Assembly: GCF_032854445.1 (NCBI RefSeq)
Contig: NC_088304.1
Coordinates: 9,125,704-9,189,703 of the forward strand
Source: Liolophura sinensis
Lineage: Eukaryota; Mollusca; Polyplacophora; Chitonida; Chitonidae
Reading direction: 5' to 3'
Length of the DNA stretch: 64,000 nt
The position numbers were made by a program, and so were the translations under genes. Of the stretch, positions 3,434 to 63,300 are shown in pieces (positions within the stretch are counted from its first letter, which is position 1; each line of letters begins with the position of its first letter). The notes beneath the pieces were generated by a model that saw nothing but the letters and a program-made list of their open reading frames with translations, made no database searches and was not told the DNA's origin.

Positions 3434-3926
3434 AAGTTAGTACTGCAAAAACCAGTGTTAAGCTTCTTCCGTCAAAGGAATTTACTCCAAGTTTCTTAAG
3501 ATTTACAATGATTATAATTCTCTTATAAGTAAATGTGGTCAGAGCATCCAGAATATCGGCCGCTCTGCTTATTAATTGTGTCTAATTTTCGCTTAATATG
3601 GGGCTAGGCTTTGTATATTCTCCACACTGGATATTTGAACAAATGCAATATCGTTTTTTATGCAAAACTGGGTCGAGGACAAAGTAATCGCGACTGTAGC
3701 TACTCACGTTTTGTTACACCTACATGTAACCCCATGCGTGGAGCCGCAGGCACATGTACGATATAAAATAAACATTGATTAGATTGTTTTATTCTTTGAA
3801 AAAGAGAAAGCCATTGTTTATTAAACACAAATGAATCAATGATCATTGAGGAACGTCACATCAGTAATTTATTTAGCCATATCAAGGCGATTTAAGAAAA
3901 AAATCATACACAAATTTATATTAGTA

Positions 3927-5196
3927 ACACTCTGTGATAACCAATGTTGTCACCATCAACACGCTAGGATAACCAATGTTGTCACCATCGACACCCTATG
4001 ATAACCTATGCTGTCACCATCAACAATCTATGATAACCAATGTTGTCATCATCAATACTCTATGATAATCAATGTTGTCACCATCGACACTCTATGATAA
4101 CCAATGCTGTCACCATCAACAATCTATGATAACCAATGTTGTCATCATCAATACTCTATGATAATCAATGTTGTCACCATCAACACTCTATGATAACCAA
4201 TGTTGTCACCATCAATACTCTATGATAATCAATGTTGTCACCATCAACAATCTATGATAACCAATGTTGTCATCATCAATACTCTATGATAATCAATGTT
4301 GTCACCATCGACACTCTATGATAACCAATGCTGTCACCATCAACAATCTATGATAACCAATGTTGTCATCATCAATACTCTATGATAATCAATGTTGTCA
4401 CCATCAATACTCTATGATAATCAATGTTGTCACCATCAACACGCTAGGATAACCAATGTTGTCATCATCAACACTCTATGATAACCAATGTTGTCACCAT
4501 CAATACTCTATGATAATCAATGTTGTCACCATCAACACTCTATGATAACCAATGTTGTCACCATTAATACTCTATGATAATCAATGATGTCACCATCAAC
4601 ACTCTATGATAACCAATGTTGTCACCATCAACACTCTATGATAACCAATGCTGTCACCATCAACACGCCAGGATAACCAATGTTGTCACCATCAACACGC
4701 TAGGATAACCAATGTTGTCACCATCAACACGCTAGGATAACCAATGTTGTCACCATCAACACGCTAGGATAACCTATAATGTTGTTACAATCAACACTCT
4801 AAGATAACCTATGTTGTCGCCATTAACTCGCTAGGATAACCAATGTTGTCATCATCAACACTCTATGATAACCTATGTTGTCGCCATTAACTCGCTAGGA
4901 TAACCAATGTTGTCACCATCAACACGCTAGGATAACCAATGTTGTCACCATCAACACTCTGTGATAACCAATGTTGTCACCATCAACACGCTAGGATAAC
5001 CAATGCTGTCACCATTAACACGCTAGGATAACCAATGTTGTCACCATCAACACTCTATGATAACCAATGTTGTCACCATCAACAATCTATGATAACCTAT
5101 GTTGTCGCCATTAACTCGCTAGGATAACCAATGCTGTCACCATCAACACGCTAGGATAACCTATGTTGTCACCATCAACAAGCTAGGATAACCAAC
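3927..5196. repeat. 32-bp minisatellite, about 40 copies
   Basis: Tandem array of a 32-bp unit close to TATGATAACCAATGTTGTCA followed by CCATCAACACTC. Variants (CGCTAGGATAACC, CATCATCAATACTC) occur in runs that reappear as blocks, showing higher-order duplication. Not a coding repeat: 32 is not a multiple of three and stops are frequent. It lies about 800 bp beyond the 3' end of the TIR-death-CARD gene. Confidence 0.95.
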
Positions 5197-6009: not shown

Positions 6010-6935
6010 TCATTGGTTTTGTGACATGTTTGGTGGACAAATTGCTGAGGTTTCAGTCTGCTGATAAAACATGCATTTTTCATATTTTTCATTGAGCATG
6101 TATATGATTTGTTTAATCTCTGCAGATGCTCGTACACTTGGTTCCAATATTTCATCGATCCTCTCCAAACTTCTACGATCATCACTCTTCTTGGTTTCGA
6201 GAAGTTCAATAAGGAAGCTCTCTTGTACTTTACGATCGTCAATCTTCTTGGTTTCGAGAAGGTCGGTAAGGAAATTCTCTAGTACTTTACGATCGTCAAT
6301 CTTCTTGGTTTCGAGAAGTTCAATAAGGAAGCTCTCTTGTACTTTACGATCGTCAATCTTCTTGGTTTCGAGAAGTTCAATAAGGAAGCTCTCTTGTACT
6401 TTACGATCGTCAATCTTCTTGGTTTCGAGAAGGTCGGTAAGGAAATTCTCTAGTACTTTACGATCGTCAATCTTCTTGGTTTCGAGAAGTTCAGTAAGGA
6501 AGCTCTCTAATACTTTACGATCGTCAATCTTCCTGGTTTCCAGAAGTTCCCCTAGGACCATTCCAAACATTTCACGATCGGCACTCCTCTTGACTTCAAG
6601 ACGTTCATCAAGGATGCTCTCGAATAATTTGCGATCGTCACTCTTCTTGGCTTCAAAACACTGGAGTAGGATCTTCTCTAAAACTTTACGATCCTCACAC
6701 TTCTTGGCTTCAAGACGTTCGTCAATGATGTTCTCGAAAATTTTACCATCATCACTCTTCTCGGCTTGGGGACTTTCTTCAACGATGTTCTCGAAAATTT
6801 TACGATCATCACTCTTCTTGGCTTTGAGACATTCGACAAGGGAACCCTTTGAATTGTTCGGATTGCTGTTCTTGTTCGATGCGAGGCATTCCACAAGGAC
6901 ATCTGAATCGGTCTTTGAAGCAGAGCATTGCTCAC
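6010..6935 (-). CDS. Exon 11 of the TIR-death-CARD gene: 19-residue repeat domain and C terminus
   Basis: Terminal exon, 307 codons plus stop. Twelve consecutive 19-residue units with consensus near LLETKKIDDRKVLESFLTE run over about 6140-6840. The earliest units (higher coordinates, e.g. CLKAKKSDDRKIFENIVEE) are diverged, while the six nearer the C terminus are almost identical at DNA level (57-bp period). Conserved positions are a basic pair, D-D-R, and hydrophobics at helical spacing, suggesting a long charged helix or helical solenoid. The tail (EIKQIIYMLNEKYEKCMFY) is non-repetitive. A minus-strand AATAAA lies at 5868-5873, about 140 nt past the stop. Confidence 0.85.
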
Positions 6936-9900
6936 CTGAAAATGCAATCAAAGACTGAATTAAGCACCTGCAGATCCCACTTGTTAGTGTACATGTAGCA
7001 AAGGTAGAACTTGTACATGTTAAGAAGGAGATGATTGGCCAATGTCTTACACCTGATCTTATATGCATAGAAGATCTATTCAGCCGAGACAAACCTGAAT
7101 GGTACATCTAATAACCCTGTATCTGTGTTTACTGGATTAAACAATAAACAATAAAAAGTATGATGACAATCTGGTTTACCTGCGAGTGCTAAGGTAAGAT
7201 GAGACTGGCCAGTCTCCATCAACGCGTTCTTAAACTCAGACAGCGCCCGGCTCCCACAGAATGGTAAGGTCTTGAGCAGTCTCTTGATTCGCTTGTGACG
7301 TGTATTGGGGTAGAGAACGTAGTCGAGCGCTGAGCCTGACAGAATTTCTGCTCGACGAAGATAACCCTCTATGTGGGTGACGTCCATCATATCATCAACC
7401 AAAAGCTGGTAGTTTTCCCTCAGTCTCTTCTTGTCGGCTTCATCCATGGGCTGCACTGTACGGGCATACATAAAAGACAAAGCACGTAAAAGATAAATAA
7501 AGGTTGCCTCGAAAGACCCCATAAACTTTGGTATAATTAAGCATAATAAACAGATGCTGACTTCCACTCAACACGTTTTTGATATCAAGAGCTTGGACCC
7601 TTCACCTGACGTCAGCTGATAGTGACGAACAGCTATTCAAGGAAAAATGAACATAGGGAACAGGTAATACGAAATAAGTATGCTCAAACAAATATATATC
7701 CTGTATATGAGAGGAAGCTCACCACCTCGTATCAAAGAATCGTCAGAGGTTTGAGATATTGGATCATTTTGAACTAACTTTTCCAAAAAAAAGAAAGTGA
7801 AGGGCGAACACAACCGTTCGTGTAGCTTACTCATGAGTGGATTTATTTCCAGTTTAGCCATAGCATCGTTGAGCACATTCAAGCCGTTCTCTGATTCAGG
7901 GCAGTTCGTGCACCAGCATTCTATCACCCGTTCGGTCAGTTCCCGCATTCCGTACTGTCCCCAGTCCACCCATATCCTCTCCAACTGATCTCCGTCTAGG
8001 CCAAGAATACGGCCTACATCCAGCCAGTTTGGTCCTAAATAACATATATAATAACAGTTAGGAGATATTATATCAAAAGTTTCTCTACGTAATAATATTT
8101 GGTTAATAAAAACAATACACAAACATAAAAACAAGCATACCTTTTTACAACTACATTTTATCACATAACTGCAGTGTTCAGCAGTGCCCTTAATCCATGA
8201 CATATTTTTCGTGTGTCACTAGTTACATCACACTTTCAGTACACTTTCATTGACTGAAAGCGTCATTCACATGACGTAAATATGTGACGAAATTAGTTGA
8301 ACTCTTTTTCTTTACTACCATGGCGACCGGTTTACGAGTTGACTGTTTTGTCAGTATTGATGGTAGAGGAAAGGCAGAGATAACTAATATACATGAAGAA
8401 CGGGGAGAAAGGTAATTCACAGTAGACATTGACGGCATTAATATTCAAGTTGACTTATGTGCACATCGGCTCCAGGTCATACCGGCAACAACAAAGGAGC
8501 CAAACGGCGAAAGTTCACAGACGATAGCTTTCCGCAGACGACAGCTCAGTAACAGTGGCAGTTAAATATTGATCCATTTTTCAACCTGTTCGTCGCGTTG
8601 AATCCCTAAAGTGAGTGAGTGAGTGCTTGGGGTTTAACGTCGTACTTGACAATTTTTCAGCGATATGACCACGAAGGAATCCTTAGTGAACCCGTAGAAG
8701 ATTCGGACATACAGGATTTCATAACAGGCCAGTCAAACAAACGCACATTAAGTAAAACGCACTTTGATTTTCGGAAAATATTTCCTGCAGCCAACTGTCT
8801 GTGAAATTCGGCAAATTCATGAGACACCTCCATTAGAGTTAAACAGGCTCCTATCAACATTCTTCATAAGTGTTCGGAAATCTCACGGCTCTCAATACGA
8901 ACCCACGAACAAGTCTTCGTGGTATGTTGTCAAGTTTTGAACGTCGGCTGAAACGTCAAAACTATGGTCATAGTTTAGTATCAAGCCCATTGATTACATA
9001 GATGCTGGAGAAAAGGAAATCTCCCCAAAAGAGTAGATCCAATATCTGACGCTGAAATCGACAGACTCTGACCAACTGGTGTACTTGGGAAGTCGTCTCC
9101 TAGCATCATGTGGTTTTTTCAGTGCCGTGTATTTTGATCTTCGTGGCACTACCGAACAGATGGCGATGTGTTTGGAGGATGTTTCTCTGTGTTCCGATAC
9201 AGTTGGCCAAGAATATCTTCAATTTTCCGAACGGCAAACGAAGACAGTCTCAATATTCAAAATTTATGCTGTCAAACACTCGTCCGATTATTGTCATGTA
9301 AATAATTCCGTTCTACATTGCCGCCAACACAAAACATCCATCACCAGGGCCCCACCACATCTGGTTTATGCGACATCCCATCGGCGAGAATGAACTTTCC
9401 ACAATGATGAAAAAAGGATATATTCCGCAGGCACCCACACTGACAAAAGCTTTCAAATCACAGCGCCAGAAGACATTTTATTCAGAAACTGAATGACTGC
9501 GAAATCCCAGCCAATCACATTATGCAGATATCCAGTCACAAGAACATTCAATCCATCAACAATTACAGCCATTTAAAGCATAGAAGAATTTCTCCGCTCC
9601 TCAATTCAACTGTTTTTGTAAGCCTTATACCTGGAGGAAACTCCAATTTTTCATCTGAAACAACGCACGCTGCAAAAACATTGCACTGTTCAGACCAGAA
9701 ATTCAGAAATTTCAGAAATTGTTGCAACTTCAACTTCATGGCCGCCAGTTTTCATTAAACCTAGCGCATAATTATGATCACAAAACAACACATTTGTGAG
9801 GAACAATGAACAGTCGTCCGTAATCAAAGTGTATAGTGTTCAAAGACTCTCGTGATAGGCATGAAACTCGGTGCAGACGACCTATTTCATCGTGTGTTGC

Positions 9901-12900
9901 GGACAGAATTAACAATTTTTGACCTTTCTGACTTAACTTTTCGTGTGTTCATATCATTTTTAATTGCCAACTTTATTTCACAACTTCTCTGTTTACATTA
10001 TACATATACGTTTTAAATCAGGCGGTACTGTCATGAAACTACATGTTAACCACGTAGTCATGCTGCTTTCGCCAACAGTGCTTCGTCTGAGCCAGGCTGT
10101 CCTTCGTTTACATGTACTAAATGTGTCCGAGATTAAACTTACAAAGTGTTGCATTTCTTCCTCTTTTAGCAGCTTCATTTATGTGATAAAGAGAATCTAA
10201 TACTCGTGTTTATTTCACATGAAAGTTATGAAATGAATACTCTTGTCAGATCCTCTATTTATTAGACACATTTTTAAGCGGAGAAAAAGAACACATGTCG
10301 TAACAACAACTGAGGCAGTAGAAGTTGCTGAACCCGGGCACTCTGGTTTCCTCCACCCAAAAGCTGGCGGTAATCTTATATGAAAAATTCTCGCGCGTGG
10401 CGTTATTAATAACATATTAATAACATATTAATACATAAACAAATGTAAGGAGATACAGGCAACAGCAATGGATGTATCCAACAAAGTACTCAAAAAAGTA
10501 GACGGAGTACAAACAACATACTACAATTACTGTTTTTATTTAATATGTATAACGGAAACAACATACCCACTGTATCCCTCAGCAGCTGAACACAAGACTT
10601 AAGGTGGGTGGGAATGTTTTCTCCACCAAAACTGTTCGCATCATCCTCGATTTCATTGGAAGTGTCTTGTTCTCGAAATTTGGTCCAGGCGTTTAACAAG
10701 GCGTTCATCTTTTCCAGAACTTTCCCTTCTGTGTCCGTGATCTGAAACCTTAGTGCTTCACAGTGTGATGCAACTATCCCAGGAATGGCTTGAAGTGGTT
10801 CCAAACGTGTGCAGATCTCGTCCGCTTTCTGCAAAGGAAATCAAATTAATGGTAACTGACATACGATGATAATTTAGGCATCCCAAGTGTTTTTATTGTC
10901 TATTTCTTTCAGAGAGTCACCTATTTTCTGCTGCCTGTAAAATCAGTCACTCTCGCTACAAAAATTGCCTGTAGTCAGTGACACGTTACAATATAAGCTC
11001 TACACATGGATATATTTGAAGTTCACATTATTGCATGGAAAATGAAGTTAGACCACTTTTTCTACTTCGTAATGTTAAAGTCCATGTGCCCCGTTTCGAC
11101 GGCAAGAGCCCATTCCCTCGAGTGACCAGTGGCATACTGGATATTGGGCGAAGTTCAACATGTGTTGACAGAGGGCGACACCAGTTTCCTAAACTGCTAT
11201 CGATCTTGCTGTAAACCTTGTTTCTGCCTCTGCCATGTTTGAAATTGTTTACAAGTATTAGTATAATATAACCTTAATAAATGAATGTAATTTTATCTGT
11301 TGTAGTATATTATATCGCGGCAGTGGTTTTAATGCTGGATGTTAGGAAATTTTGTTATAAAAAAAACAATGTAGTCTATTCGCTGAGAATGTAGTTTAGG
11401 AAGTGAAACTGCATGGAGTTTGCTCTTATCGCATGTTCGATAAAACAAATTACTCTCCACGCCCAGCATGCCACTGTTTTTTAATAATTATGACGTCACC
11501 CGAGGCAACGAGGTCTTGGTGTCGAAACTAAGCTTATGCAGTTTAACATTATGAATTAGAAAAAGGGTTCTAATTTGATTTTGAAGAATATGAACTTCCA
11601 TCACATCTGTGTGTAGAGCTTTTACTGTTACGTATCACTGAAGGCAATTTTGGTAGCGAGTATGACCCATTTTATAGACAGCTGAATATAGGCGACTCTC
11701 TAAAAGATGAAGAGCTCGGTTTACATTTATAGGCCCCACACGCTGGCAACGATGAAAGATAAAAAAAAAAACGCGATTCATAAATATACCTGCATGTAGG
11801 AATCAACGGCAACGCACGCTCAAGACTACATGATATTTAACGCGAACCAAGAATATGTTGATTTTCCTGCATTGTGCGTTTGTTCTTGGTGCCTTGTCTG
11901 ACATTAGTATTCTTAATAAAAATGCAAATTGTATATACAGTTATTACAAATAATCGGATTAGAATTGCAATGTATCTTCTCATCTATCCCTCCTCTTTTC
12001 TCGCTCCTTGTTTCTTTATAGTTTGCTTGAGAAATTGTAGTTGAAGTCACATATGGATACTGATTGGTTTAATCTATGTTGCTATTATGAATGTATCTGA
12101 CATACACATAACATCAGTGCAGTTTTTTACCTAAAGCCACGATGCTACTGGATGGGTAATTTGCTACTATTTAAGTATTTACAAAAACCATTAAAATAAA
12201 ACCCCAACTGAAGTAAATTGACAATGGACCGTATTTCATCGGTTGCACGTGACCATTTCCTCGTTTAATTTACCACTGTTAAGGTTTTATTCCATCTGTT
12301 CATAAATATGCTGAAAATACTGCAACATACGCGTCCCCTGGCAGCACGGTATAACCAGTATAATGGGAGGGATGTTAGTTGCAATTTATTAGACATAACT
12401 CGTCAAGATATACTAATGACAAAACGATCAGAGCCTTGTACATGTTCGTATTGGATTACATTGTACGTGTTGTAAGGGCAAAGGTGTATATTCCGTCGAT
12501 ACCACGTATTCCCATAAAAAATCGCTATTGCAGCTATTCCTAAATTAATACGCTAAAGTTACTGAAAAAGCATGTACAATGACAACCGTAATTACTTGCG
12601 GTATACCCCTTTAGTTAGGAGTTTGACCAACACAGGTAAATCATACCTTTGCTGTTTCTCTGACACTTTTTAAACATGTCTCCAGTGTTAGAATACGTTG
12701 TGTCTTTTCCACTAGACAGCTCTCCTGACATCTAATCTTCTCCCACAGAAACGAGATTTCCTCGGCTTTTCCCTGGAATGTTTTTATGAGTGTGGCATGT
12801 TTGTGTTGTAAATCTGACTCGGATTCCGTCAGTTGCTTCAGCTGATGGTCTTGTCTGTTTCTCTGGGATAAATATTCCTCACATTTGGCTTGCAACTCGT

Positions 12901-15900
12901 TGCACTATAGAAAGGATACATAAAATAGATGGCATCAGCATTTAGTGGTACACGAGTGTCAAAACATGACTTAAACCATAGTTAAATGATAAGGATCGAG
13001 ATGCAAAACATGCTAATTGTAAACAAAATTACAATGTATTGAAACCTACTTTGGTCTCGTGTAACGTCACGTCAGATGGCATTACGTCACACATCGTATA
13101 GCCAGAAATAAGACTCTACTTGTAAAAGATATAGTTGTCATACAAGCAAAACCGCCTTACTCCACGTCTGCATGATACATTATTGTGTCACATAAGGTAC
13201 CTTTTCTCAAAATGCCGAAGATTTCGTGTTTGTTCACCGCGTTATTGGGGTCAAATAGAGCTATTCGGTTTCTATCGGCACTTTAAGATTAAATTCCAAG
13301 ACAAGTTTGAGATGACACTTGGATGACAGCCAAAAACGAAACACGAAAATGCGCTGACGACAACCCCTCTGAAAGTAGGCATTATAGTGTTAAAAACGAG
13401 CCAAACTTCGTCATTTGCAGGCGCTCAGAAAGTAGGCCAATGGTAAGTGCCCTGACGACAAACTACAACTTGACTTGACTTACGGGACTTTGTGGTTCTG
13501 TACGCAACGTATTAGTGAAGATATCATGTTTGAAAAGTTAAACAAATAATTGAATGTGAACTGAAACCTGTGGTTTTAAGTAGGTCTACCGTTCGTCACA
13601 CTTAACAAAGTTAGTCACAATCTAGAAGGTCCATCAGCTAGTTTATGTTTGGAATATGTAACCCTGTACTAATGGCCGCAACAGTTATTCAAGCAAAATT
13701 TCAATTCTGGCCCACTAATGTAGGTCAAACGTCGGAAGATCTAACCAATACGTAATCTGCTCACGGAATTTTTATTAGGTCATGTTAAAATGTTTCCTAC
13801 ATTTTGCCGTACATTTTACATAGTTTTGGAAATAATAAAGGGAAATGCAACTTTGTTATCAGTTAAATCTACCAAGTCATTCAAATGAACTTAAATATGT
13901 GTCTTTTTTCTGGTTTTGCTAAGGAACGTAAGGACGATTGTAGAAGCATAAGTCTGGGCCTGAGCCTGGCTTTACTCGACAGTAAAACACTCATCAAATA
14001 AATAAACAAATATATCAATGATTGGCGGGATCAAATATGAATAAACTTAAACTATGAAAATCTAAAATATAGAAATTTTCTTTAGATTATCAGTTGCAAG
14101 TTAAGTAACCGCGCTGTGTTAATATAAATATACATTGTATTATAAAACCAGAGCCCATGGGCTTTGATGAGATCTGGTGAACATTGCAAGGGCATGCAGA
14201 AATGAACACCGATAATACAGCATATACATGTAGTTCCAGCTTGCATTACCCGACATTAAGTGTTATAATGCCGTTCTTTACTGAAAAAGTTTACTATGAA
14301 TTAATTCACCATTACCAGTATTCCATTTACATTATGTACGGACAATAAATAATAAACTTTTTCCGTGGTTGTTGTTTAAGCAAACCCACACACATCAAAG
14401 TCAAACATGCCTGCTTGCTTTCGGGATTCAGTATAAAAGATTTGAAAAATATTACCAGCTTGTAACCTAATACTGAACGGTAAAAGATTGTCGTAATTCT
14501 TCTCCCCAGTTTCGCCTCGATCTCAGAGTTGATCTTTTCAATTCAGAAATACGCCGATTTGCGGAAATGGCTATATCTGGTTGATGTTAATCTCTTATGA
14601 TAAAAAAAATTATTTTCCTTACAATTAAAGATAGACGATCATATCCAGTTTCATTCACTACCAATAAATACAACATAGTACATACATGTTTTCATACCTT
14701 TTAAAAACATTATATTGTAATTTAAGACAACCACGATCTGCCTGTCTTGCGGACGTTACGAGTGAGTTTGCCTGTCTAGCTCAGACAGGCCTCCCAGGCC
14801 AGTACAGCACGTGCGACTGACCTCCCATGCCTCGCCTATCATTTTGCATACAATGTGTCAAGTAGTACATATAATTTTGTGACTTATATGGCAGATGTAG
14901 TGACTTTGGTGTTGATGACTCAGCTATAGAAATGCGCATCAAAAAAATCGCTACCACAAACCACCACGGGTCGCAGACACCAAGTGGGAGATGGCCGTCA
15001 CATTTACTTAGCGGGACAAAGTGAAGAGGAACGGATTAGTCTTCATTAGCCACGGACTTGTCACTAAAGAGACTCTGGTTAATGTCAAATCTCAAAAACA
15101 TAAATGTTGACGTACAGCATAGACAGTGCACCAAAGCAGCAACGACAGTATGATTGTCGGAAAATACGAATTCCTGTTTCGACGCATAGGTTCTTGTCAA
15201 TATACCTCAGTTATGGTTTTATTTTAAATGTTCAATACAAATGCTTACATAGTAAAAAATTACACGCCCACTATCACAGTATATTTACAGACGTACAGCA
15301 TAGAGAGTAGCGACGACAGTGTAATTGCTGGCAAAAGGTCACACGTAACCGGCGAAATATAGTCTCTTGTAAATTAACCTCAGTCAGGGTTTTATTCTAG
15401 CTTCATGTGAATGCATAAATAGTAGCAAATTACAAGCCCCGTAGCGCCATGGCTTAAGCACAATTAGGCTAAAAAAAACGCAGTGATGCTAACTGCAATT
15501 TATTAGACGTCACTGGTCTAGAATTACTCAAAATACTGTGTTGTTGTCACATTTAAAAGGCATAAAAGGCACATTTAAGCCATCTGTCACTTGCCTCAGA
15601 AAGCTCACCCGTTCTCATCTTTCTTTCTAGGCGCGTATCTATCAAACGTCTTAAGACTTCAGTCTCAATTCAAATACAGCTACATTCACAATGTTTTGCT
15701 CTAGAAAATTTAAAATTGATACATTGATTCTTTACTGCAGAACAATGTTTCAACATTAATTTGAGCTCTTTCCTGTTTTGAGTTTGGCTGTTTAAGGACT
15801 TCACTTTTTAAGACTTTTTTAAAAAAATTATTCACTTTAGTCTTAAGTTCCTTGATAAATACGGGTACTGGGCTACACTTTGCGTAAATTTGCTTGGATC

Positions 15901-18900
15901 TGATCATACTGTTGCATTAATGTCGGAAGGAAAAATATTAGATGAAATGTTTTGAGTAATTTTAGATCAGTCACATGGAATAAATTATAATTTCCATCAC
16001 CGTATTTCTTAACAAAATCTGTTTACGCCATGTTGCTCGGGAGAATGTAAAATGATATACTACCTAAGAGTTACATGTACAATTCCAATGAAAACTTAAC
16101 TGAGATAAATTGACAATAGGCCGTATACCACACGTTACGTGCAACCATTTGCCAGCTATCACACTGTCGTCGATACTCTGGTTTTACTCTCTGTGCTGTA
16201 CGTCTTTAATTATACTGTATTCCTGCATAAACCAGGATTCTACTGGTGGGCTAAGCATCCCGAGGGCCTGGTCCCTTCGCATTGTTTTAATGTGAATGCA
16301 TGTTAAATGTGATACACAGGATTTTGAGTAATTCTAGACCAGTGACGTCTGAAAAGTTGCAATTAACATTACTGCAATAAAATCCTGATTGAGGTAAATT
16401 GCCAAGGCGTTGTATTTTACCAGTTAAATGTGGCTATTTGCCAGCTATTACACTGTAGCCGTTGATCGGGTTTTATTGTTTATACAGTAGTGTACATTAA
16501 TATCGTAATTCCTCAACTTTTGCATATGAAACAACAACTTTTTTTGCAATTTATGCTCATTATTAGTTTGCGTTTGAAGACAAAACTACATTGATTGGAT
16601 GGGCCTATATTAGGGCGTCACAAATGGTGTAATTTTATCAGTCTACATAGAATAATGCCTTCAGAATACGCTTGAATAAACACTTGATTGACAAAGGTTG
16701 AAGAAATATAACAGGACAATAGCCGTGGGGTAAAGTTTCAGTTTGAACCAGGTCAGTTTGGAATATTATAAAAATATTTTTTTCTGTTTCAAATGTCCCG
16801 CATATCGCGATCATTTATTTATTTGATTGGTATTTTACGCCGTACACAAGAATATATCACTTATACGATGGCGACCAGCATTATGGAGGGAGAGAACCGC
16901 AGGATATTAACAGGAGGAAGAACCGATGACAAATTCAAACCAGGTCAGTTGGGAACATTATCCTGAAAATGTCTTCATACATCTTGCACGTCGACACAAA
17001 GCTCACTGAACACATTTATAGAAAAAAAAATCATGTTTCCTTTCAGATATATAGTACAAGACAATGAGTTTAAATGTGTACTCACACACGAAAAACTCAC
17101 CCAATGTTCCAGGCGATGTTTCTCGTCTAAAGTTTCACCATATTCGACCTGGAGCTCGTCATACTGTAGAATGTAAAAGTACAGAAAAATAGGTGGTATA
17201 AAGATTTTACCCTTATAGATATAAATATATATTTATAGATATAGAATCGTAAATAATTGGAAATTCCCTGATTCAAGAAATCGGGCAACTCTCCGGTTGC
17301 ATAGTCTGTTGGATCTACATGATATAGATAAATGATAGTTCGAGAAAGCCAAATTAAATCATGTTTCCTTTCAGATATACAGTACAAGACAATGAGCTTA
17401 AATGTGTACTCACACACGAAAAAACTCACCCTTTGTTCCAGGCGATGTTTCTCGTCTAAAGTTTCACCATATTCAACCTGGAGCTCGTCATACTGTAGAA
17501 TTGAAGGGTACAGAAAAATGGGGGGTATAATGATTTTATCTTTAAATATGAAAAAAAATTAAATATAATATCATACGTCTTTTCCATTTCAGACCGTGTC
17601 ACAAGCAGGTTCTAATATGTCAACATTAAGCAAATCAGTTTTCTTTTTGGTTGGATTGCCACTCTCCTTAAACCAGAAGTTTTCCCTTCTGGCTAGAGCT
17701 AGAGCGTCCGTTTCGAAGTCAGAAGACCCGGGATCAAATCCGGGTCGGGTCATAACAAAAACATAAAAAATGGTACTTGTTGCGGCCTCGTTTGGCAATC
17801 AACACTTTGATGTTAGAGAAAAAAGAAAACAGAATTATTTGGCCCGGTGTCAGTACAATGTGATTGGATGGGGTGTCATGTCTGGTGTCTTCGGCATGAT
17901 GCGTTAGTGGCAGCAGCACACAGGCGGTAGGGACTCACCCTACCAAACGAAGACACAGTAAATCTACACACAGCTAATAATTCCTCGTTGTCATATTACT
18001 GAAAAAACTCTAATCATGCATATATATATTCCAGTTTAGTTCAAATACATGTTGTGTGTTTCGACTAAAGAGCGAAGGAGCTGCCTTGACCAATCGGAGT
18101 ATCCGTCTTAAGTTTGTCACATGATCGCACAACATTAATTTCTAGAACATGTGACTAAAGATATGTGATGAGACGTTTCACTTGATGACCTAGTGGATAC
18201 AACATCTAAATGAGTCAAACCATCTGTAGTTTTCAATTCAGTTAAAGGTCGTTGTAGCAGCCAAGCGAAAGAGAACAGTTCATACTCTGACGGTATGTAT
18301 ACCCTGATCCATTAAAAATCACTTAAAACATACTCAAGGTACATTTACGTTGCCAAAGGTAATGAATCAGTAACCGATTGTCACACAAAACATCAGGGTA
18401 TGCCACATCGGTTATACGGAAATCGAACAACCAAGAATAAACTCAAGGGTGTTAAGATTTTCTAAAATCTGTCTTTTCTCATTAAATATGTAACCACATA
18501 AACTTTAGTGCCTCGACATTATAGTAATTAGATTTTGTGATGAGAACTGACCCTGATGGAAGAATCTACAGCTTTAATAATACTGGTTGAGTATCATATT
18601 GCATACCGGCTCAGTTCACTTTATTCTAAACGATTTCTACTGTTCAGGAGCACACTTGCTTGCCTATATATAATACACGCACGCACAAACCTTCATGACC
18701 AGATCTTTGTTTTCCGTGCCCGTCTTTGTGGCAATGACGTGGTCACCTGGAAATAGACATGATAAATCATGAAGTTTTATGTATTACAGAAAGAAATTGT
18801 ATTTACAATAACTTTGATACATTAAAGAGCAGTATAATAATTCACATATGCATAGTTTTTGAAACTGACAACTCTATCAAACCTATGGATTCCAGGATCT

Positions 18901-21900
18901 TTCGTTGCTCGCTGTAGTTGATTACACATCAATTCACACTGCCCTAAAGTACTGACACCGTAAATTTAATAATTTACCGTAATTAATATGCACACAGAGC
19001 AGCGGCCACGGAGCGTTCCCCTTCTGTTATTGCGCTATTATAACTTCAGGTCAATACACGCCGTGCTTTTGAGATACCACCTCTAATATTTTGTTCAAGA
19101 TTGGTTCTAATACGAAATACACTAAGTCGTGAATTTTGAATTTAAGGTAATTAATACGAACACAGCAAATCAATGATGAAACATCAAGTGTGCAAAACCT
19201 TGAGTTCAATACATGATGTACTTCTTAATATACCACCTTGACATTTTGTTTCATACTGATTCTTATACACAATACACTGTCATGAAGTTTGTAATTTACG
19301 ATTTTTATTATGCACACAACCAATCAACGATGGAACATCCCTCTGCCTTGTGGTATTATGCTCTACATGTGTGCAAAACGTAAGCTCAATACATGCAGTC
19401 ATTTTAAAGTACTACCCCAACATTTTGTTTAACATTGCTTTCCCTATCATTAGACACCGATGGTTGAGGTATGACATAAACTATTAATGTAGTTTGTACA
19501 GGCTAGTTAAAATTTTAAAAATATTTGTGAGAGTACCGAAACGTTCAGTCAAAATTCTACATAATTACTCTTTTACCAGTACGAATATATGTAGAAAGCA
19601 GGACGTACATGAAACTGTGCTGAAACAAAATACGTCAGTCAAACGTAAAGAAATGGATTATTCTTTTTTACCCTCTTCGTCATATTCTCTACTTTAAAGG
19701 AGAAGAAAACACAAAAATGATGCCAAAATCAGATGTAAGAGCGTTAAACCTTGTTGGCAATTATAATCTTTAATATTTTTTTAATTTTTTTGTCAGGAGA
19801 AAAGGGTATTTGAAAATATTTTGCATTTGGGACCGCCCTTTGGTATTTGGTTCTAACTAAGGATGTGATGCTTGTCTAATAAACTTATTTGAATGCAAAT
19901 TTGTTGTTTATATCGAAACATATGCATTTAACCTAAATTATGATAATATTCATGAACATATTAAGAATATACATATCATTCAAAGTGAGGTTTAATACAT
20001 TTGTTAGATGAAAAGAACAAATTCTAGTGCAAAATATTTATTAAATAAATTTAAATAAATATTCATTTATGACAATATTTTAAAAAAGACTATAAATACC
20101 AAAAGGTGGTCCCAAATAACCACCATACCAACATTATTTTCAAGTGTCCTTTTCGCCTTAGGGAAAAATCGGAAAAAATATTGAAGACCGCATTTAGAAA
20201 TAACTTTTCGCACTCTTTCATCTGAACTCTATTATTTTTATGTTTTCTCCACCTGTAACACTCCACTCCAAATTCTGTTCCTATATGTGAGACGTCAGTG
20301 GTTTTGATGTTCTAATACTAGTAAGGCCAATCATATCACGACGTAAATCATCCGCCGGAAAAAAAGGTGGGACATATCTGAAGACGAAAACTGTCTTACT
20401 TTTTTGTTGCAAAAGGTTCACTGTTTCCTCAAGTTTGGATTTCTCGTCCGTCAGAGTAGCAACGGACCTTTCCAAGAATGAATTAGCTTCATTCAGCCTG
20501 ATCACCTGTGCAGTTAAACTTTTTCTCTCGCTCGAATCTCTCTGAGGGAGGAATACAAAGCAAATCCACAATCTATTCTGGTCAATTTAACTATATAAAA
20601 ATGTTCTTCTCCTTGTTTTAAAAATTTATCTGGAACGAGTTTAAATACCCTCAATACTTCAATTAGGCTGAGGGGCCTCCGTGGCTCAGTCGGTTAGCGC
20701 GCTAGCGCAGCGTAGTGACCCAGAAGCCTCTCACCAATGCGGTCGCTGTGAGCTCAAGACCAGCTCATGCTGGCTTCCTCTCCGGCCGTACGTGGGAAGG
20801 TCTGCCAGCATCCTGCGGATGGTCGTGGGTTTCCGCCGGGCTCTGCCCGGTTTCCACCCACCATAATGCTGGCCGCCGTCGTATAAGTGAAATATTCTTG
20901 AGTACGGCGTAAAACACCAATCAAAAAAAAAAAAAAAAAAAATCAATTAGGCTGAATATACACATGTACAGATAAATGGAAAATAAAATGATTTAAAACC
21001 ATTCAGTAAAAACTTATGGAATCTGTGGGTCAAAACAGACATTCATATACCAGCCTGTGCGAGGTGCGACAATAGAACTGGGAATTTTGCTGAGCAGTCT
21101 GCTACGAGGAACTTTTTGGTAGGCACAATACTCCCGTGTGCGCCAGGCTTAATACGATTTATTTATTTATTTATTTGATTGGTGTTTCAAGCCGTACTCA
21201 AGAATATTTCACTTATACGACGGCAGCCAGCATTATGGTGGGAGGAAACCGGGCAGAGCCCGGGGGAAACCCACGACCATCCGCAGGTTGCTGTCAGGCC
21301 TTCCCACGTACGGCCGGAGAGGAAGCCAGCATGGGCTGGACTTGAACTCACAGCGACCGCATTGGTGAGAGACTCCTGGGTCATTACTGGCTTAATACGA
21401 TGTTTCTCCTTTATGAAAGCGATATCAGTCTGAGAGTCGAACAAATACTTTGTTACAGAAAGTACATAAATTTTTTAGCGTGGATAACCGTCTATTTCAC
21501 ACCAAAGTTTTATTCTAAAAGATCAAATTGTGTTAAATTATTGGATCAGCAGTGTTTATACCATTCTATACCCTAGGCCTCAACTACAAGTGCAAATAAA
21601 GCATTCTGTCGCCAATTTTGACAAACATCTCCTCAACCGTAGCTATCCATCATACCCTGTTATTTATACGTCCAGTCAACGATGAGTGTTCTCACAAAAG
21701 AGTCTGTCAGTTCAATCAGAGAAGCTCAGGTGGTGTTGGGCGGGTTGGCATTTCCAACCTTTAGTTTTTATAGGGCCTAGGATAGAGTGTGTAACATGGC
21801 ATACGCACGATCTATGTACTAATTTGATATAACGATCTGTGATTAAAACTCTTTATCATCTCATGGACAACAGACCTCAGCAAAACTGGCATTGTAGCGG

Positions 21901-24654
21901 GTGTTTCTTCGTTTTAAACCGGGAAAGTTCTCTGGAATTGATAGAAAAAAACATATAGTTAATCATTAAAATGCACCTATTATAGACAGCGACATTCTAT
22001 TACAGTACTTATGTTACATATATGATCTAGAAACCAGAGCAGCGACGACAGTGTGACAGTTTATAGTTGGTAAGTGGACACACGTGACCCGTGAAATGAG
22101 GCCTTTTGTCAGTTTACCTTTTGTCGGTTAAGGTTTTATTTTGTCCATGTAAATGCTTAGGCCGAACAACTTATCACCTGTCTAACATCATGGCTTATGC
22201 CGAATTAAGGCCTAGGCAATACTAACGCAAAATATATGTCAGATAAAGATCATTTAAAAGCTGTGCAGAGAAATTGTTCGAAATTTTTTCTTCAGAACTT
22301 GTTCAAACTAGTAAAATTTATTTTCTGACTGATAGATTTATTAATTTACTTGATTGGTAGTTTACGCCGTACTCAAGAACATTTCCCTTTACGACGACGG
22401 CCTACACTGTGGTGGGTGAAAACCCACGACTATCCGCAGGTTTACTGGAAGACCTTCTCACGTACATAAACTGCTAGGCTTGATCATTCAAACTGAGCAC
22501 ACATTTTTGCACATGCGTTATAACTAGAATATGTTGGGATAAATCGCCCTCATCTTACACTGTCAATACAAATTTCTGCACATGTTCTAGGACTAGAATA
22601 TGCAGAGATAGATCGCCCTCATATTACAATGTCCACACATTTTGCACACATGTTTTAGAACTAGAATATGCAGAGATAAATCGCCCTCATATTACAGTGC
22701 CAACACACATTTTTGCACATGCGCTAGAGCCAAAATATGCAGAGATAAATCGCCCTCATATTACAGTGTCAACACACATTTTTGCACATGCTTTAGAGCT
22801 AGAATATGCAGAGATAAATCTCCCTCATATTACGTTGTCAACACACATTTTGCAAATGCGTTATAGCTACAACATGTAGAGAAAATCGCCCTCATATTAC
22901 ACTGTCAACTGTACATAAAGCCAGTGTTTGGTTCAACTTTTCCATACTCCCTGTCCACCCATCGTTTATTATGTTAATAACATACTGGTGACAACATTCT
23001 CCGGTTTGACCTTTTCTGAAATACTGAAGGACAGGGTGGTGCATGGAATGATGGTGGTGGTGTTAAGGCACTAGCTTATTGCTCACAGAGCTTTTCTTTA
23101 GTGACAGGTGACAGTTGATATGTACACGTTGATATGCTGCAAGTTTGAATTCTTGCAAAGGAAATGTGTTCGTAAGTCTATAAGCTCGGTTTCGACGACA
23201 AGAACGAATTATTGTCATAATATTGACGTCATAATTATTTTTAAAAAAACAGCGGAATGTTGGCTATTTTTTGCTTTTCCTTGGCTCGGTTCTTCAAAAC
23301 TGGTATAAGACTTCATATCAGATTTAATTTTAAGCAGAGTCTTCAATTTTGTACTTATCCTAAAAAAAATTCTGCACCAGTATATTAAATATGAACTAAA
23401 ACTACTAAAACTGGGCCCTGCAGATTAACGGATTTGTCTACTCTGTGCAGTGCTATACCCATTTATGAAACATTCAAAATTTCTTGTGTTACATTTTAGC
23501 AACCATGGTTCTTGAATAAAACCTACATGAGTACGAAGGGAGGACCGATTGTTGACGTTAATAGAAAAAATTGAGTGATTTACCCCTGGTGCTGCTGTGA
23601 CAAGAAGAAACTTGGCCGATGTAACTAAGTTCTTATAATAGTAAATTGTATTTAGACCATATTATGTGCACACAAATGCTGTTGTTATCTACCCGGTAAT
23701 ATCATCCTTCTGAATTCGTTACGAAAGACATTTAGCACATTGCTTTGAATATTATGCTAACAATGATGGTTATAATATTCTTTTCCGAACTCACCAGGGG
23801 AATGCCAGGATCCTTCTGTAAATGTATGGTCCCGTCAACTTTCATTTCTCTAACTAATACTAGTACTAATATACAGAAGCGTCCTTCATATGACGTATAC
23901 GTATCTCGCTTTGCAGCTTTTGTTAGATTCGCAGTAAAATTTGATAATTTCACCCCTTTGTCATAAGTTATTAATTAAATAAAAATAGTGTGTCAAGGAT
24001 ACTCTCATTAAGACCTATGGACATTGTTTCCAGGATATATATATATAAACACAAACCACCAAAGAACTAAGAATGAAAATAGGACGGAATCATCCAAGGG
24101 CTTAGATGTTGATTCCGAAAAACGGTTAAAATGGTCGGCGTCGGCTTACCTTTATGGAAGACAGCCTCTGCGATTTTGTAGTCAATCATTTCCGCTCTCG
24201 TCTCTTCAATGCAGATCACATTTATCAGGTTTTGCGGTATACTACAAAATTTATTAACTGTGGAAACGACCCGCAGTCCGTTCGTGACGCTCAAAGAAAC
24301 GGCAGAATTTATCTCAAATTTTCCCCATTCATCGGTGATGTAGTCTGGGGATAGAACTATGGCAACAACTAGGCTCTTATCCATGCAGCCAATGATATTT
24401 TCGTGAATAAGCACACCTGGGGTGAAATCGCGGAGGGCTATGCAACATTTCAAGTTATATGGTGAGCTTTCAAGAGCTTCCACTCTGCCTTTAACAAATG
24501 CCAAATCTTCCCTATGGAAGGCGAAATATATATGGTATTCCTTTCCCTCTGGCAGGGTCCTGTCTTCACCACAAAATGGATTATCCAGATCTGGTGCGGG
24601 TCGTAGAGGTGTTCTTGCGAGGAATTTGTTCAGCTTGTTCCGCATTAACTCCAT
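6010..24654 (-). CDS. TIR-coiled coil-death-CARD-repeat protein, 11 exons, complete CDS
   Basis: Spliced minus-strand gene. Exons in transcription order: 24654-24150, 23847-23795, 20541-20400, 18746-18691, 17492-17430, 17163-17101, 12904-12647, 10828-10567, 8034-7723, 7455-7180, 6935-6010. All junctions are GT-AG with compatible phases, and the sum is 2916 nt, giving 971 residues plus stop. Layout: TIR about 38-165, short linker, coiled coil about 187-465, death domain about 468-545, CARD about 575-660, twelve 19-residue repeats about 680-910, and an unrelated C-terminal tail. TIR, death and CARD domains are homotypic adaptors of Toll/MyD88, NF-kB and caspase pathways, so a cytosolic immune or cell-death scaffold is the likely role (inference). 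There is no signal peptide or membrane segment. An in-frame stop lies eight codons before the ATG, which supports this start. The second exon (18 residues) was chosen by phase and is the least certain. I do not recognise a named orthologue; MyD88 has only death and TIR, in the opposite order. Confidence 0.85.
7180..7455 (-). CDS. Exon 10 of the TIR-death-CARD gene: CARD
   Basis: About residues 572-663. It starts VQPMDEADKKRLRENYQ, followed by a six-helix CARD pattern: LLVDDMM, EGYLRRAEILSGS, RIKRLLKTLPFCGSRALSE and FKNALMETGQSHL. The RLLKTL-x-x-x-G-x-x-A-x-x-x-F-x-x-AL signature between helices 4 and 6 is typical of CARDs. The donor is TCGCAG|GTAAAC. Confidence 0.88.
7723..8034 (-). CDS. Exon 9 of the TIR-death-CARD gene: death domain
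   Basis: About residues 468-571. The core reads GPNWLDVGRILGL, then DQLERI, then RELTERVIECWC and LNDAMAKLEIN. This is the death-domain pattern: W-x-x-(V/L)-(A/G)-x-x-L-G-L, an I/L-x-x-I helix 3, and a helix 4 ending in W before the last two helices. Two donors three bases apart are possible (7726 or 7723); both keep frame and differ by one glycine-containing codon. Confidence 0.88.
8608..8700 (-). mobile_element. Truncated SINE (CTTGGGG-tail family)
   Basis: Only the 3' tail part remains: GTGAGTGAGTGCTTGGGGTT followed by AACGTCGTACTTGACAATTT and CGAAGGAATCCTTAG. It lies upstream of the death-domain exon, in intron 8 of the gene. Confidence 0.65.
10567..10828 (-). CDS. Exon 8 of the TIR-death-CARD gene: pre-death-domain helical region
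   Basis: 262 nt, about residues 381-467, beginning KADEICTRLEPLQAIPG and ending QLLRDTV. It is mixed helical with an acidic linker (SNEIEDDANS). The acceptor is TTTGCAG|AAAGCG and the donor GTGG|GTATGT. The phase-1 exit joins the death-domain exon as TVGPNW. Confidence 0.85.
12647..12904 (-). CDS. Exon 7 of the TIR-death-CARD gene: coiled coil
   Basis: 258 nt, 86 residues, phase 0 at both ends, about residues 295-380. It starts CNELQAKCEEYLSQ, resembling the duplicated exons before it (Y/N-DELQ-x-x-x), which suggests the whole coiled coil grew by exon duplication. Rich in Q, E, K and L, with heptad spacing throughout. Confidence 0.85.
15291..15560 (+). mobile_element. Interspersed non-coding element (ACGACAGTGTGAT family)
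   Basis: Block order: GACGTACAGCATAGAGAGTA, CGACGACAGTGT, GTCTCTTGTAAATTAACCTC, GGTTTTATTCTAG, TTTATTAGACGTCACTGGTC, AATTACTCAAAATACTGTG. The same order recurs at 29569 and 41132, and in reverse at 16080 and 45120. No coding capacity. Probably a non-autonomous transposon of about 270-330 bp; termini not resolved. Confidence 0.6.
16080..16490 (-). mobile_element. Interspersed element (ACGACAGTGTGAT family), reverse copies
   Basis: Carries ATCACACTGTCGTCGATACT and GTGCTGTACGTCTTTAATTA, the reverse complements of the family's left end. A second, more diverged copy follows (AGACCAGTGACGTCTGAAAA, ATTACACTGTAGCCG). Confidence 0.55.
16814..16905 (-). mobile_element. SINE 3' fragment
   Basis: Reverse-oriented tail of the main SINE: ATTTATTTATTTGATTGGTA, then CGCCGTACACAAGAATAT and ACTTATACGATGGCGACCAG. 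The head is missing. Confidence 0.75.
17101..17163 (-). CDS. Exon 6 of the TIR-death-CARD gene, downstream copy of the duplicated exon
   Basis: Second 63-nt copy, with the same 19 leading residues as exon 5 but ending HW instead of QR. Its acceptor (CTACAG) and donor (GG|GTGAGT) are preserved. It adds another three heptads to the coiled coil if included. Confidence 0.8.
17430..17492 (-). CDS. Exon 5 of the TIR-death-CARD gene, upstream copy of a duplicated exon
   Basis: Exactly 63 nt, 21 codons (three heptads), phase 0 at both ends, beginning YDELQVEYGETLDEKHRLE and ending QR. It is nearly identical to the exon 329 bp further along the gene, and the intron flanks are duplicated as well. Because both are symmetric in phase, either or both can be spliced in without changing the frame. 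Confidence 0.8.
17690..17910 (+). mobile_element. tRNA-derived SINE, second family
   Basis: The head has tRNA-like boxes (GCTAGAGCGTCCGTTTCGAA, then GGGATCAAATCC). The body contains GTCATGTCTGGTGTCTTCGG, shared with 1305 and 45918. Confidence 0.65.
18691..18746 (-). CDS. Exon 4 of the TIR-death-CARD gene
   Basis: Fifty-six nt encoding SDHVIATKTGTENKDLVMK. The acceptor is TTTCCAG|GTGACC and the donor GAAG|GTTTGT. Its entry phase (1) and exit phase (0) fit only between exons 3 and 5. It continues the linker/coiled-coil section. Confidence 0.7.
19694..20250. mobile_element. Long inverted-repeat MITE-like element
   Basis: Left end TTAAAGGAGAAGAAAACACA; the right end matches in reverse (ATTTTTATGTTTTCTCC). 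The interior is itself partly palindromic (GGGACCGCCCTTTGG against GGTGGTCCCAAATA). A relative lies at 60470-60740, and the end motif recurs at 37953. No coding capacity. Confidence 0.6.
20400..20541 (-). CDS. Exon 3 of the TIR-death-CARD gene: start of coiled coil
   Basis: Encodes RDSSERKSLTAQVIRLNEAN and continues in heptad-like register through SFLERSVATL, DEKSKLEETV and NLLQQK. Hydrophobic residues alternate at 3-4 spacing, as in coiled coils. It ends in phase 1 at AAAAA|GTAAGA, matching the phase of the next exon. Confidence 0.8.
20672..20942 (+). mobile_element. Main SINE family, full-length copy with target-site duplication
   Basis: The tRNA-derived head GGGGCCTCCGTGGCTCAGTC contains the A box; the B box region is GAGCTCAAGACC. 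It ends AACACCAATC plus poly-A. It is flanked by a perfect 13-bp direct repeat, TCAATTAGGCTGA, at 20659-20671 and 20943-20955. This is the best reference copy in the window. Confidence 0.95.
21159..21388 (-). mobile_element. Main SINE family, 5'-truncated copy with target-site duplication
   Basis: Reverse copy lacking the A-box head. Flanked by the 13-bp repeat GGCTTAATACGAT at 21146-21158 and 21389-21401, showing that the truncation occurred at insertion. Confidence 0.93.
22020..22230 (+). mobile_element. Interspersed element (ACGACAGTGTGAT family), partial
   Basis: Contains AGCAGCGACGACAGTGTGAC, GGTTAAGGTTTTATTTTGTC and ATGTAAATGCTTAG in the family order. The right part is diverged. Confidence 0.5.
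22338..22475 (-). mobile_element. Diverged SINE 3' fragment
   Basis: Reverse tail: TTGATTGGTAGTTTACGCCG, TACTCAAGAACATTTCC, AACCCACGACTATCCGCAGG. Head absent. Confidence 0.7.
22490..22905. repeat. 69-bp minisatellite, about 6 copies
   Basis: Unit contains GCAGAGATAAATCGCCCTCA, TATTACAGTGTCAACACAC and TTTTGCACATGC. Its period is a multiple of three and stop-free in one plus frame, but there is no splice or start context; it is intronic to the TIR-death-CARD gene (intron 2). Confidence 0.85.
23795..23847 (-). CDS. Candidate exon 2 of the TIR-death-CARD gene (linker)
   Basis: Fifty-three nt encoding EMKVDGTIHLQKDPGIPL. It was selected because exon 1 ends in phase 1 while the coiled-coil exon must be entered in phase 0, so an exon of this phase pair is required. 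It has an AG acceptor and a good CTG|GTGAGT donor. The alternative AG two bases upstream would create a stop. No domain is recognised. Transcript data would settle it. Confidence 0.55.
24150..24654 (-). CDS. Exon 1 of the TIR-death-CARD gene: TIR domain
   Basis: Encodes residues 1-168. Box 1 is EYHIYFAFHRED (residues 39-50). Box 2 / BB loop is ALRDFTPGVLIHENI (73-87), with the RDxxPG signature of Toll, IL-1R and MyD88-type TIRs. Then come LVVAIVLSPDYITDEW (about 95-110) and FEINSAV, matching the strand D / helix C region with its conserved W and E (Trp110, Glu114). The exon ends ATAAAG|GTAAGC. A strong acceptor (T-tract then ATAG) at 24768 suggests a 112-nt 5' UTR portion (24655-24767) spliced to an upstream non-coding exon. 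Confidence 0.9.
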
Positions 24655-60300: not shown

Positions 60301-63300
60301 CAAGTAGCCCATATATGAAGGAAAAAGAAAGGTAAAGAAAAATAAGAGGAGCTGGTTGCACTCTAGTGGTTATTGTCACTTGCCTTTCAGTGGTGTAAAA
60401 ATGTATATTTCAAATTTTTAACATAAATATGGTGAAAATATCAAATTAAGGAGCATATTTGCTAATATGGTGTTCAATTTTTTTTTTTTTTTAATTTTTT
60501 TCTTCAGGACTTAGGTGTATTTGAAAATATTTTTGTATGGTGGATATGTATGACCAATAAAAACATTATTATGCAAAGATGACATATTCCAAAAGATGAC
60601 CCCAATTACCCACCATACAAATTTTTTTGGGAAATATCTTCTTCTTGTTAATTTAAAGACAAATTCACAAACTATTGAAGAAGCTCATATTTACTACTAA
60701 CTTTTCACACTCTGAGCTTACATAATTTTCATGTTTTGTCTAGCATTAATCATTGCTTACATGTATGTGTCGTGTAACTGCATTCATTCGTTCAATCATT
60801 CTTATGTGTTAAATAAATTCTGTTGAGCAATAGACTTTGATGTATCACATGTACAATGTCTTACAGATTTTGAACAGCTTGGGAAGGCTTATGAGAAGGC
60901 ACGTAAAGTTTGTGGAGAAGGAAGGCGTCCCAAGGTTTTACATCAGATGTTTGGTAGAACTTGATGACTTTGTCAGTGAGGTAAGATTTTTACCTGTTCA
61001 GTTAAACCCACTTGTTATTTGTAAGCAGAACAGCCGAAGGCCATTTGTTACTTGTAAGCAGAACAGCTGCAGACCATTTGTTACTTGTAAGCAGAAGAGC
61101 TGCAGACCATTTGTTACTTGTAAGCAGAACAGCTGCAGGCCATCTGTTACTTGTAAGCAGAACAGCTGCAAGCCATCTGTTACTTGTAAGCAGAACAGCT
61201 GCAGACCATTTGTTACTTGTAAGCAGAACAACTGCAGGCCATTTGTTACTTGTAAGCGGAACAGCTGAAGGCCATTTGTTACTTGTAAGCAGAACAGTCG
61301 CAGGCCATTTGTTACTTGTAAGCAGAACAGCCACAGGCCATCTGTTACTTGTAAACGGAACAGCCGCAGACTATTTGTTACTTGTAAGCAGAACAGCCAC
61401 AGGCCATTTGTTACTTTTAAGCGGAACAGCCGCAGGCCATTTGTGACTTGTAAGCAGAACAGTCGCAGGCCATCTGTTACTTGTAAGCAGAACAGCCACA
61501 GGCCATCTGTTACTTGTAAGCTGAACAGCCACAGGCCATCTGTTACTTGTAAGCGGAACAGCTGCAGACCATTTCTTACTTGTAAGCGGAACAGCTGCAG
61601 ACCATTTGTTACTTGTAAGCGGAACAGCCGCAGGCCATTTGTTACTTGTAAGCTGAACAGCTGCAGGCCATCTGTTGCTTGTAAGCATTACAGCTGCAGA
61701 CCATTTAATCTCTCTGGGTTCGACTGCAGCTTTATGTAGCTGTTTGTCATGTACAGCTGCCTGGCCAGGTGAAGATTAAATTGTCTTCATATGAGTTCTT
61801 AAAAAATATATGATAAAGAATCATTAGAAAATATGTCATACAAAAATACATTGAGACGCAAATCTAATCCAAGATCTTTATTTCGTCATTTTGTTATGAG
61901 AATATAGTTAGATGCCCATAGATTCGTTTTGCAGGAATCCACCCGAATCTGGTTAAAATCTGTTGCCCAAAGAACTGTTGTTCCAAGTGAAGGATTCAGT
62001 GCTTGTAAAAGTAAACAGATGTTGTGACTTTTATGTTCATAATTTTACATGGTGTGAAATTCCTACATCCACTTGTTATGTCTCCATGATATGGCTGAAA
62101 TATGCTGTAAAGCATGGTTCATTCACACCCACTTGTCTGAAGGGGGTACAGTAGTTGAGGTGACATTTGACATTTATTCATTTTCCAAAAAAAAATTCTG
62201 ACTACTTTTTGTGAATCTGCTTTAAATTCCCAAAGTTATTGTTATAGAAGAGTCATGATGTCATTGGATTCTCCGTTAAAGGAATAGCCCTGAGTGTAAA
62301 AATCTACATGAAGATGCTATGATACATCACTAATTTCAAGTTACAAACCTCCCAGTCTTTAAATTCTTCTGTCCATCAATTGTTTTCAGTGTTGGGAGGA
62401 TCGTGAAGGACGTAAAAATATGAGCAAGAGCAACGCTAAAGGGCTGACAACTCTGCGACAGAAACTGCGAAAGTATGTCCGCGACTTTGAGACGGAAATG
62501 ACCGAATATAAAGAGGTAGGAGGAGATTTTGAATCTAACCATTAGAATCTCATTCTTTCAGCAGCATTTGTAAAAAACTGACGGATTTTAGTCATTATCT
62601 ACATATCTTAACAGACCACTTTTTTCTGCAGAAGCAGACACTGTTTATGCTGGCCCCAGTAGTGGATTGGCGCCTGATTACTGTTGGTTTTTATTGTAGA
62701 ATCCTGATGAAGGCGATGAAGAGGCTGAAGATGAGGAAGGTGATGAAGGTATTCATCAGTTTAGCATTTACACCAATCATTTTGTAACTGTACTTTCATT
62801 GCCTAGTTTTCTATCTGACTTGTGTGGCTTCCTCTCCGGCCGTAAGTGGGAAGGTCTGTCAGCAACCTGTGGATGGTCGCATACGAAAGATCAACTTTCA
62901 GTACTATTTTTGCACAGTTTTAATTTTATTTTGGAAACAAAACTACATTGGTAGGATTGACCAGTTTCACAACTTCACAAAAGTACAGTTGTATCAGTCA
63001 ACACAGAATAATGCCTTTAGAATCTGCCTTGAACACCTTGCAAATATGTGAAAAGATTGAAGAATCACAGTATTCTTCTGTGTTTTCTCTCTTCAAGGGG
63101 CCTTGGGGGCAATAAGTGTCTCCTAATAATACAATGAGCTTTATCTACGTATCACATGTTGAACATGTTTTTCTCCACCCTACCACCATCCGCTAAAGAA
63201 AAAATCTTCACAGTGACTTTGATCACCAATCAAATATATCAGATGTCTTCCAGCAAATGTTTTCATATGTGAGGGCCCATAGTTTGACAGTGTCGGCATT

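Follow-up and report, generated by a model that had tools for sequence, protein, structure and literature searches.

TIR, death and CARD domains usually sit on separate animal proteins, and the closest described adaptors join them in other ways. MyD88 is a short protein with a death domain followed by a TIR domain, without coiled coil, CARD or repeats. RAIDD/CRADD has its CARD ahead of the death domain, and CARD9 and CARD11 carry the CARD at the N-terminus. The predicted chiton protein described here resembles each of these in part. Like MyD88 it has TIR and death domains on one adaptor, but instead of an N-terminal death and a C-terminal TIR domain the order is reversed, with the TIR first and a CARD and a coiled coil added. 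With RAIDD/CRADD it shares the combination of death domain and CARD, although here the death domain comes before the CARD and is accompanied by a TIR and a coiled coil. The combination of a CARD and a long coiled coil on a single scaffold recalls CARD9 and CARD11, but in the chiton the coiled coil precedes the CARD, and CARD9 and CARD11 have neither TIR nor death domain.

Among invertebrates these three domains have been shuffled widely. The oyster report describes in its text six Death-TIR MyD88-like genes (PMC4346834), and placozoan MyD88-like proteins are given as TIR plus CARD (PMC6321704), a TIR-CARD fusion that we liken to the chiton one by description only, the text consulted mentioning no death domain there. 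The sea-anemone protein NG3 is described as kinase, death and TIR (PMC5094078); as far as that text goes, both it and the chiton protein are lineage-specific TIR fusions with a death domain, but NG3 has kinase, Roc/COR and SH3 domains and not a CARD. Lophotrochozoan RIG-I-like receptors have grafted N-termini, attributed in the text to exon-intron changes (PMC8998645), and like the chiton family they would keep one core while the signalling domains at the N-terminus are exchanged, although their core is a helicase receptor and not an adaptor. In amphioxus 20 of 28 TIR combinations are reported as lineage-specific, and TIR, death and CARD together are not among the combinations in the text of that paper, figures and tables aside (PMC2575513). 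Nor was a protein with the three domains described in the text, as distinct from figures and supplements, of the open-access papers examined (PMC2575513, PMC8195603, PMC6321704, PMC4346834, PMC9334734, PMC3308963, PMC5094078, PMC8998645). Pairwise fusions have precedents; the triple was found in none of the titles, abstract openings and passages that the literature searches here covered. An initial annotation of this DNA had called the protein apparently undescribed, which agrees with the text of these papers and with the name "uncharacterized" of the NCBI proteins. Its statement that known adaptors combine at most two of the domains has to be read beside the placozoan TIR plus CARD and the anemone kinase, death and TIR proteins.

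The gene is read from the minus strand of the window, i.e., the whole stretch of 64,000 nucleotides that was analyzed (C10:9125704-9189703 of Liolophura sinensis; Mollusca, Polyplacophora). Its ATG is at 24654, its stop codon ends at 6010 and an AATAAA is found at 5873, 137 nt past the stop codon. The exons are the following:

24150..24654, minus strand: exon 1, with start codon, phase-1 donor and the TIR domain (residues 1-168); Pfam TIR and PDB matches
21876..21931, minus strand: exon 2 (56 nt; NFPGLKRRNTRYNASFAE), phase 1 to 0; required to rebuild the NCBI protein P0001, no match in the tandem copy
20400..20541, minus strand: exon 3, first coiled-coil exon; gene model and coiled-coil test
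18691..18746, minus strand: exon 4 (56 nt; DHVIATKTGTENKDLVMK), phase 1 to 0; matched at two places in the tandem copy
17430..17492, minus strand: exon 5, coiled-coil exon of 63 nt, 21 residues or three heptads; not in NCBI isoform X2, in frame if included
17101..17163, minus strand: exon 6, 63-nt coiled-coil exon present in NCBI isoform X2; P0001 reconstruction
12647..12904, minus strand: exon 7, 86-residue coiled-coil exon, start of the core common to P0003; alignment with P0003
10567..10828, minus strand: exon 8, final part of the helix region plus helix 1 of the death domain; gene model and family alignment
7831..8034, minus strand: exon 9, remainder of the death domain; family profile matching the RIPK1 death domain
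7180..7455, minus strand: exon 10, CARD; Pfam CARD
6010..6935, minus strand: exon 11, tail of twelve 19-residue repeats and stop codon; 57-bp tandem array

The single in-frame model of 11 exons proposed in the initial annotation closes at all ten junctions, with AG/GT inner borders, when the sequence is read and the phases checked. This agreement is no controlled statistic, the exons having been picked to fit: nine were recognised in the sequence itself, and the remaining two, of 56 nt each, were placed from the NCBI protein. Without 17492-17430 (exon 5), the model is identical in every letter to the NCBI "uncharacterized protein LOC135476400 isoform X2" (P0001, 915 aa). With all 11 exons it has 936 aa; the 971 residues announced at first were not reproduced, although the domain order and the outer borders were correct. 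Exons 5 and 6 are tandem duplicates (60 of 63 nt identical, 17492-17101), so one of them may be alternative, and the duplication might serve to switch the length of the coiled coil; the tandem gene has a single match to them. By a home-made splice score the weakest borders are those of exon 9 (acceptor -0.6, donor 0.2), some others being weak too, and scans for extra exons with this score gave nothing useful. In the remainder of the window ten open frames had no Pfam match above the cut-off, and a tRNA search found none. Intron 1 (2.2 kb) contains six copies of a 69-bp tandem repeat (22498-22909). Interspersed units at 20672-20937 and 21054-21353, SINE-like by eye only and with no tRNA found, have several copies of 83-96% identity in the neighboring 105 kb, and a short-unit tandem array at 60998-61739 is open in several frames on both strands.

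The TIR domain is clear in Pfam (PF01582, 1.3e-8; 35.3 bits against a cut-off of 21.3), and its PDB matches include TLR6 (2.5e-10), TIRAP (2.2e-8) and MyD88 (4e-6), together with TLR1 and TLR2. The long coiled coil of the initial annotation corresponds to residues 187-357, which are proline-free and have 42 heptad-like windows of 144 against a shuffle mean of 6.9 (0 of 500 shuffles); plain Fourier heptad tests were not significant, either over the whole stretch (433/2000) or for the best 42-residue window (86/1000). For the death domain, neither the exon nor the joined protein nor P0001 has a Pfam match at E<=1, and the domain piece of this gene alone stays under the cut-off (E 0.08, 13.5 bits vs. 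22.6). However, Pfam Death appears at E<=1 in all seven domain pieces of the family described below (best 1.2e-4). A profile of the seven loci finds the RIPK1 death domain at 1.9e-6, and all ten matches of this profile at E<=1 are RIPK1, TRADD or TNFR1 chains. The CARD matches PF00619 at 5.4e-7 as an exon and with 25.2 bits in the whole protein (cut-off 23.9), and its predicted fold is nearest to Apaf-1 and caspase-9, two of the five models being confident; CARD9 and CARD11 are also among its profile and fold matches. In P0002 to P0005 the CARD is under the Pfam cut-off. Of the three signalling domains initially read from the sequence, TIR and CARD thus exceed the Pfam cut-offs, whereas Death falls below and was detected by the family profile. 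The 19-residue repeat tail was also recovered, as twelve units in exon 11, of which the first five are degenerate (6-11 of 19 residues equal to the consensus) and the last seven keep 15-19 of 19. Its hydrophobic periodicity of 3.8 residues (0/2000 shuffles; none at four other periods tested) comes partly from the repeat itself because 3.8 is 19/5. A RepA1_leader match on the isolated tail (26.4 vs. 25 bits over 12 residues) was judged a repeat artefact, and the other Pfam matches of the tail were weak, all below cut-offs. A full-length AlphaFold2 model of P0001, built from five sequences, had a pLDDT of 40 and was used for the helix pattern only.

This gene belongs to a family. We searched the genome (609 Mb, 632 contigs) with P0001 and P0005, with 50 out of 200 and 56 out of 316 candidates scored, and found at least seven loci of L. 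sinensis with collinear death-domain and CARD exons, five of them with NCBI proteins:

C10, 24654-6010 of the window, minus strand: window gene (P0001), TIR head
C10:9087538-9106635: tandem copy (P0002), TIR head
C10:8930487-8936751: P0003, core exons mapped there, without TIR
C8:43597504-43611824: P0005, PARP14-type RRM match instead of the TIR, Pro-Lys repeat tail
C9: locus assigned to P0004 by elimination, without TIR
C11: L033, without TIR
C11: L034, without TIR

Invariant columns among these paralogues number 30 of 90 in the death domain (seven loci) and 41 of 93 in the CARD (six loci). P0003 shares exons from the 86-residue coiled-coil exon (exon 7) on, and no match to its first 92 residues turned up within 3.5 kb upstream of its own coiled-coil exon. 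Its N-terminus and two frames of L034 had no domain match, and a BRE match in P0003 was disregarded (18.5 vs. 25.8 bits). The RRM of P0005 scores 26 bits against 24 as a cut-out piece and 21.7, below the cut-off, in the whole protein. The CARD match of L034 (1048-1347; C11:28209045-28209347) runs through stop codons, so this copy may be broken, a possible pseudogene, and it was omitted for that reason from the family tree of the six other loci. In this tree the only well-supported node is the TIR pair (97/97), so that gain and loss of the TIR are indistinguishable from it. Three protein searches gave Liolophura proteins only (4, 5 and 2) among candidates of 0.55-1.75 times the query length, with the 7999 sharing most words scored in one, from which an absence of relatives in other species does not follow.

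The nearest relative of the window gene is the tandem copy, annotated by NCBI as one protein. Its exons for TIR, coiled coil, death domain, CARD and tail follow in identical order, and over 11 kb the two regions share 97.2% identity. No stop interrupts the six exon stretches that were compared. The copies differ at 28 of 504 nt in the TIR (20 residues), 1 of 258 in exon 7 and 7 of 273 in the CARD, and the dN/dS pairs are 0.061/0.047 for the TIR, 0.101/0.039 for exon 3, 0.005/0 for exon 7, 0.025/0.018 for exon 8, 0.039/0.024 for exon 9 and 0.019/0.050 for the CARD, the sole stretch of the six with dN below dS. With dN above dS in the other five, constraint since the duplication is indicated, if at all, for the CARD only; these few differences give no sign of strong constraint after duplication. 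Positive selection is not claimed, as the excess of dN rests on few differences and may equally reflect weak constraint. A 32-bp satellite (3926-5195, ca. 40 copies, 88% matches) occurs beside the tandem gene copy too.

As to the origin of the TIR head, a genome search with its exon gave 61 matches. The top six (E<=5.3e-35) include both fused genes, T3 at C10:9041066 (54% identity) and T4 at C10:8981171 (52%), the other two lying at C10:21711699 and 21822272 (49 and 48% identity). Among 254 candidate proteins of 503-1601 aa only P0001 and P0002 carry a TIR of this type. Within C10:8.93-9.15 Mb the order is P0003 (core, no TIR), T4, T3 (TIR) and the two fused genes. The presence in a single 220-kb cluster of the nearest relative without TIR and of two related TIR exons suggests that the TIR was grafted onto the coiled coil-death-CARD family. 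The simplest reading would be that a local TIR exon joined a local core gene and that the fusion product was duplicated later; losses of the TIR may also be compatible with the family tree. The TIR exons C10:8981171/9041066 and 21711699/21822272 form near-identical pairs, 60 and 110 kb apart, which are either recent duplications or assembly redundancy.

Whether the TIR exon and the core exons are one gene has to be weighed against two adjacent genes, one for the TIR (exon 1 and possibly 2) and another for coiled coil, death domain and CARD, mischained by eye and by the pipeline. Annotation pipelines commonly err by chaining genes, the NCBI chain may itself be a prediction, and intron 1 is long enough, at the length given above, to count in favor of such a split. 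The genome-wide search found no related TIR exon near the other five of the seven death-CARD loci. The four non-fused TIR exons are followed, over the 20-24 kb compared, by nothing that matches coiled coil, death domain or CARD at E<=1e-3. The tandem copy, being recent and large enough for two genes, could have carried two adjacent ones as easily as one, and we have rejected it as proof of a single gene. However, the ten junctions are all in phase, and NCBI chains the TIR to the core in both copies despite different middle exons. Exon 1 ends in a strong phase-1 donor, AAAG/GTAAG, which also follows T3 and T4, so the TIR exon is unlikely to be terminal. Finally, a search of positions 5000-30000 of the window for a substitute first exon of the P0003-P0005 type gave no clear one, only three short N-terminal matches (E 0.8-0.9). 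We therefore regard two genes as improbable, and the TIR and core exons very probably form one gene.

On balance we favor, by a small measure, an adaptor in which a TIR, a long coiled coil, a RIPK1-like death domain, an Apaf-1/caspase-9-like CARD and a helical repeat tail act as a single-chain bridge. We infer this role, and an immune function, from the domain parts: a TIR of TLR/TIRAP type as input, the coiled coil as oligomeriser, and death domain and CARD as outputs. The TIR would bind to Toll-type receptors, once these are activated, or to TIR adaptors; the protein would be kept oligomeric by its coiled coil, perhaps with help from the tail, and the clustered death domain and CARD could seed assemblies. 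Such assemblies would recruit death-domain partners on one branch (NF-kB or kinases) and a CARD caspase on the other (cell death), so that a single chain might do the job of MyD88 plus a RAIDD- or Apaf-1-like adaptor in vertebrates. Of the 26 CARD and 32 caspase-domain exon matches above cut-off in the genome, one CARD exon (C9:33394565) sits, by eye, 3-8 kb before same-strand caspase exons (33397948-33402509), a candidate CARD caspase and possible client. Alternatively, the TIR might be the effector, with death-CARD clustering triggering NAD+ hydrolysis in a SARM1-like manner. The helix DEWGKFEI retains what we take to be the usual Trp-Glu spacing; the Glu is present in TLRs too and does not discriminate an effector from a docking TIR. 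The RDFxPG loop, in our view TLR-like, counts against this alternative. TIR domains are described as able to cleave NAD+ in the text of PMC8195603, but the chiton TIR appears nearer to TLR and TIRAP, the nearest solved structures, than to SARM1-type NADases: AbTIR, an NADase, gives E 0.59 only, far weaker than the signalling TIRs, and SARM1 is absent from the 39 PDB matches. We consider an effector TIR quite unlikely. A negative regulator or decoy that ties up the partners of TIR, death domain and CARD but assembles nothing productive has a parallel in the oyster TIR-only MyD88-like proteins, suggested in the text of that report as possible competitors of MyD88 (PMC4346834). Here the kept CARD, death domain and predicted coiled coil point instead to assembly, which leaves a decoy with a rather low probability.

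For the bridging adaptor, a wider and distinctly more tentative proposal is that of a private chiton family whose coiled coil-death-CARD core would have stayed constant while being re-armed with different heads (a TIR, the PARP14-type RRM of P0005, and no recognised head in P0003 or P0004), the TIR coming from TIR genes of the same 220-kb cluster, to give a Toll-to-apoptosome wire bypassing MyD88 and Apaf-1. The chiton protein would unite Toll-type, death-domain and caspase-recruitment signalling in one naturally fused chain, and makes a direct link from TIR signalling to a CARD caspase testable in an animal. With TIR exons, a TIR-less core gene and two fused genes side by side, the cluster offers a concrete site to study the emergence of innate-immune wiring.
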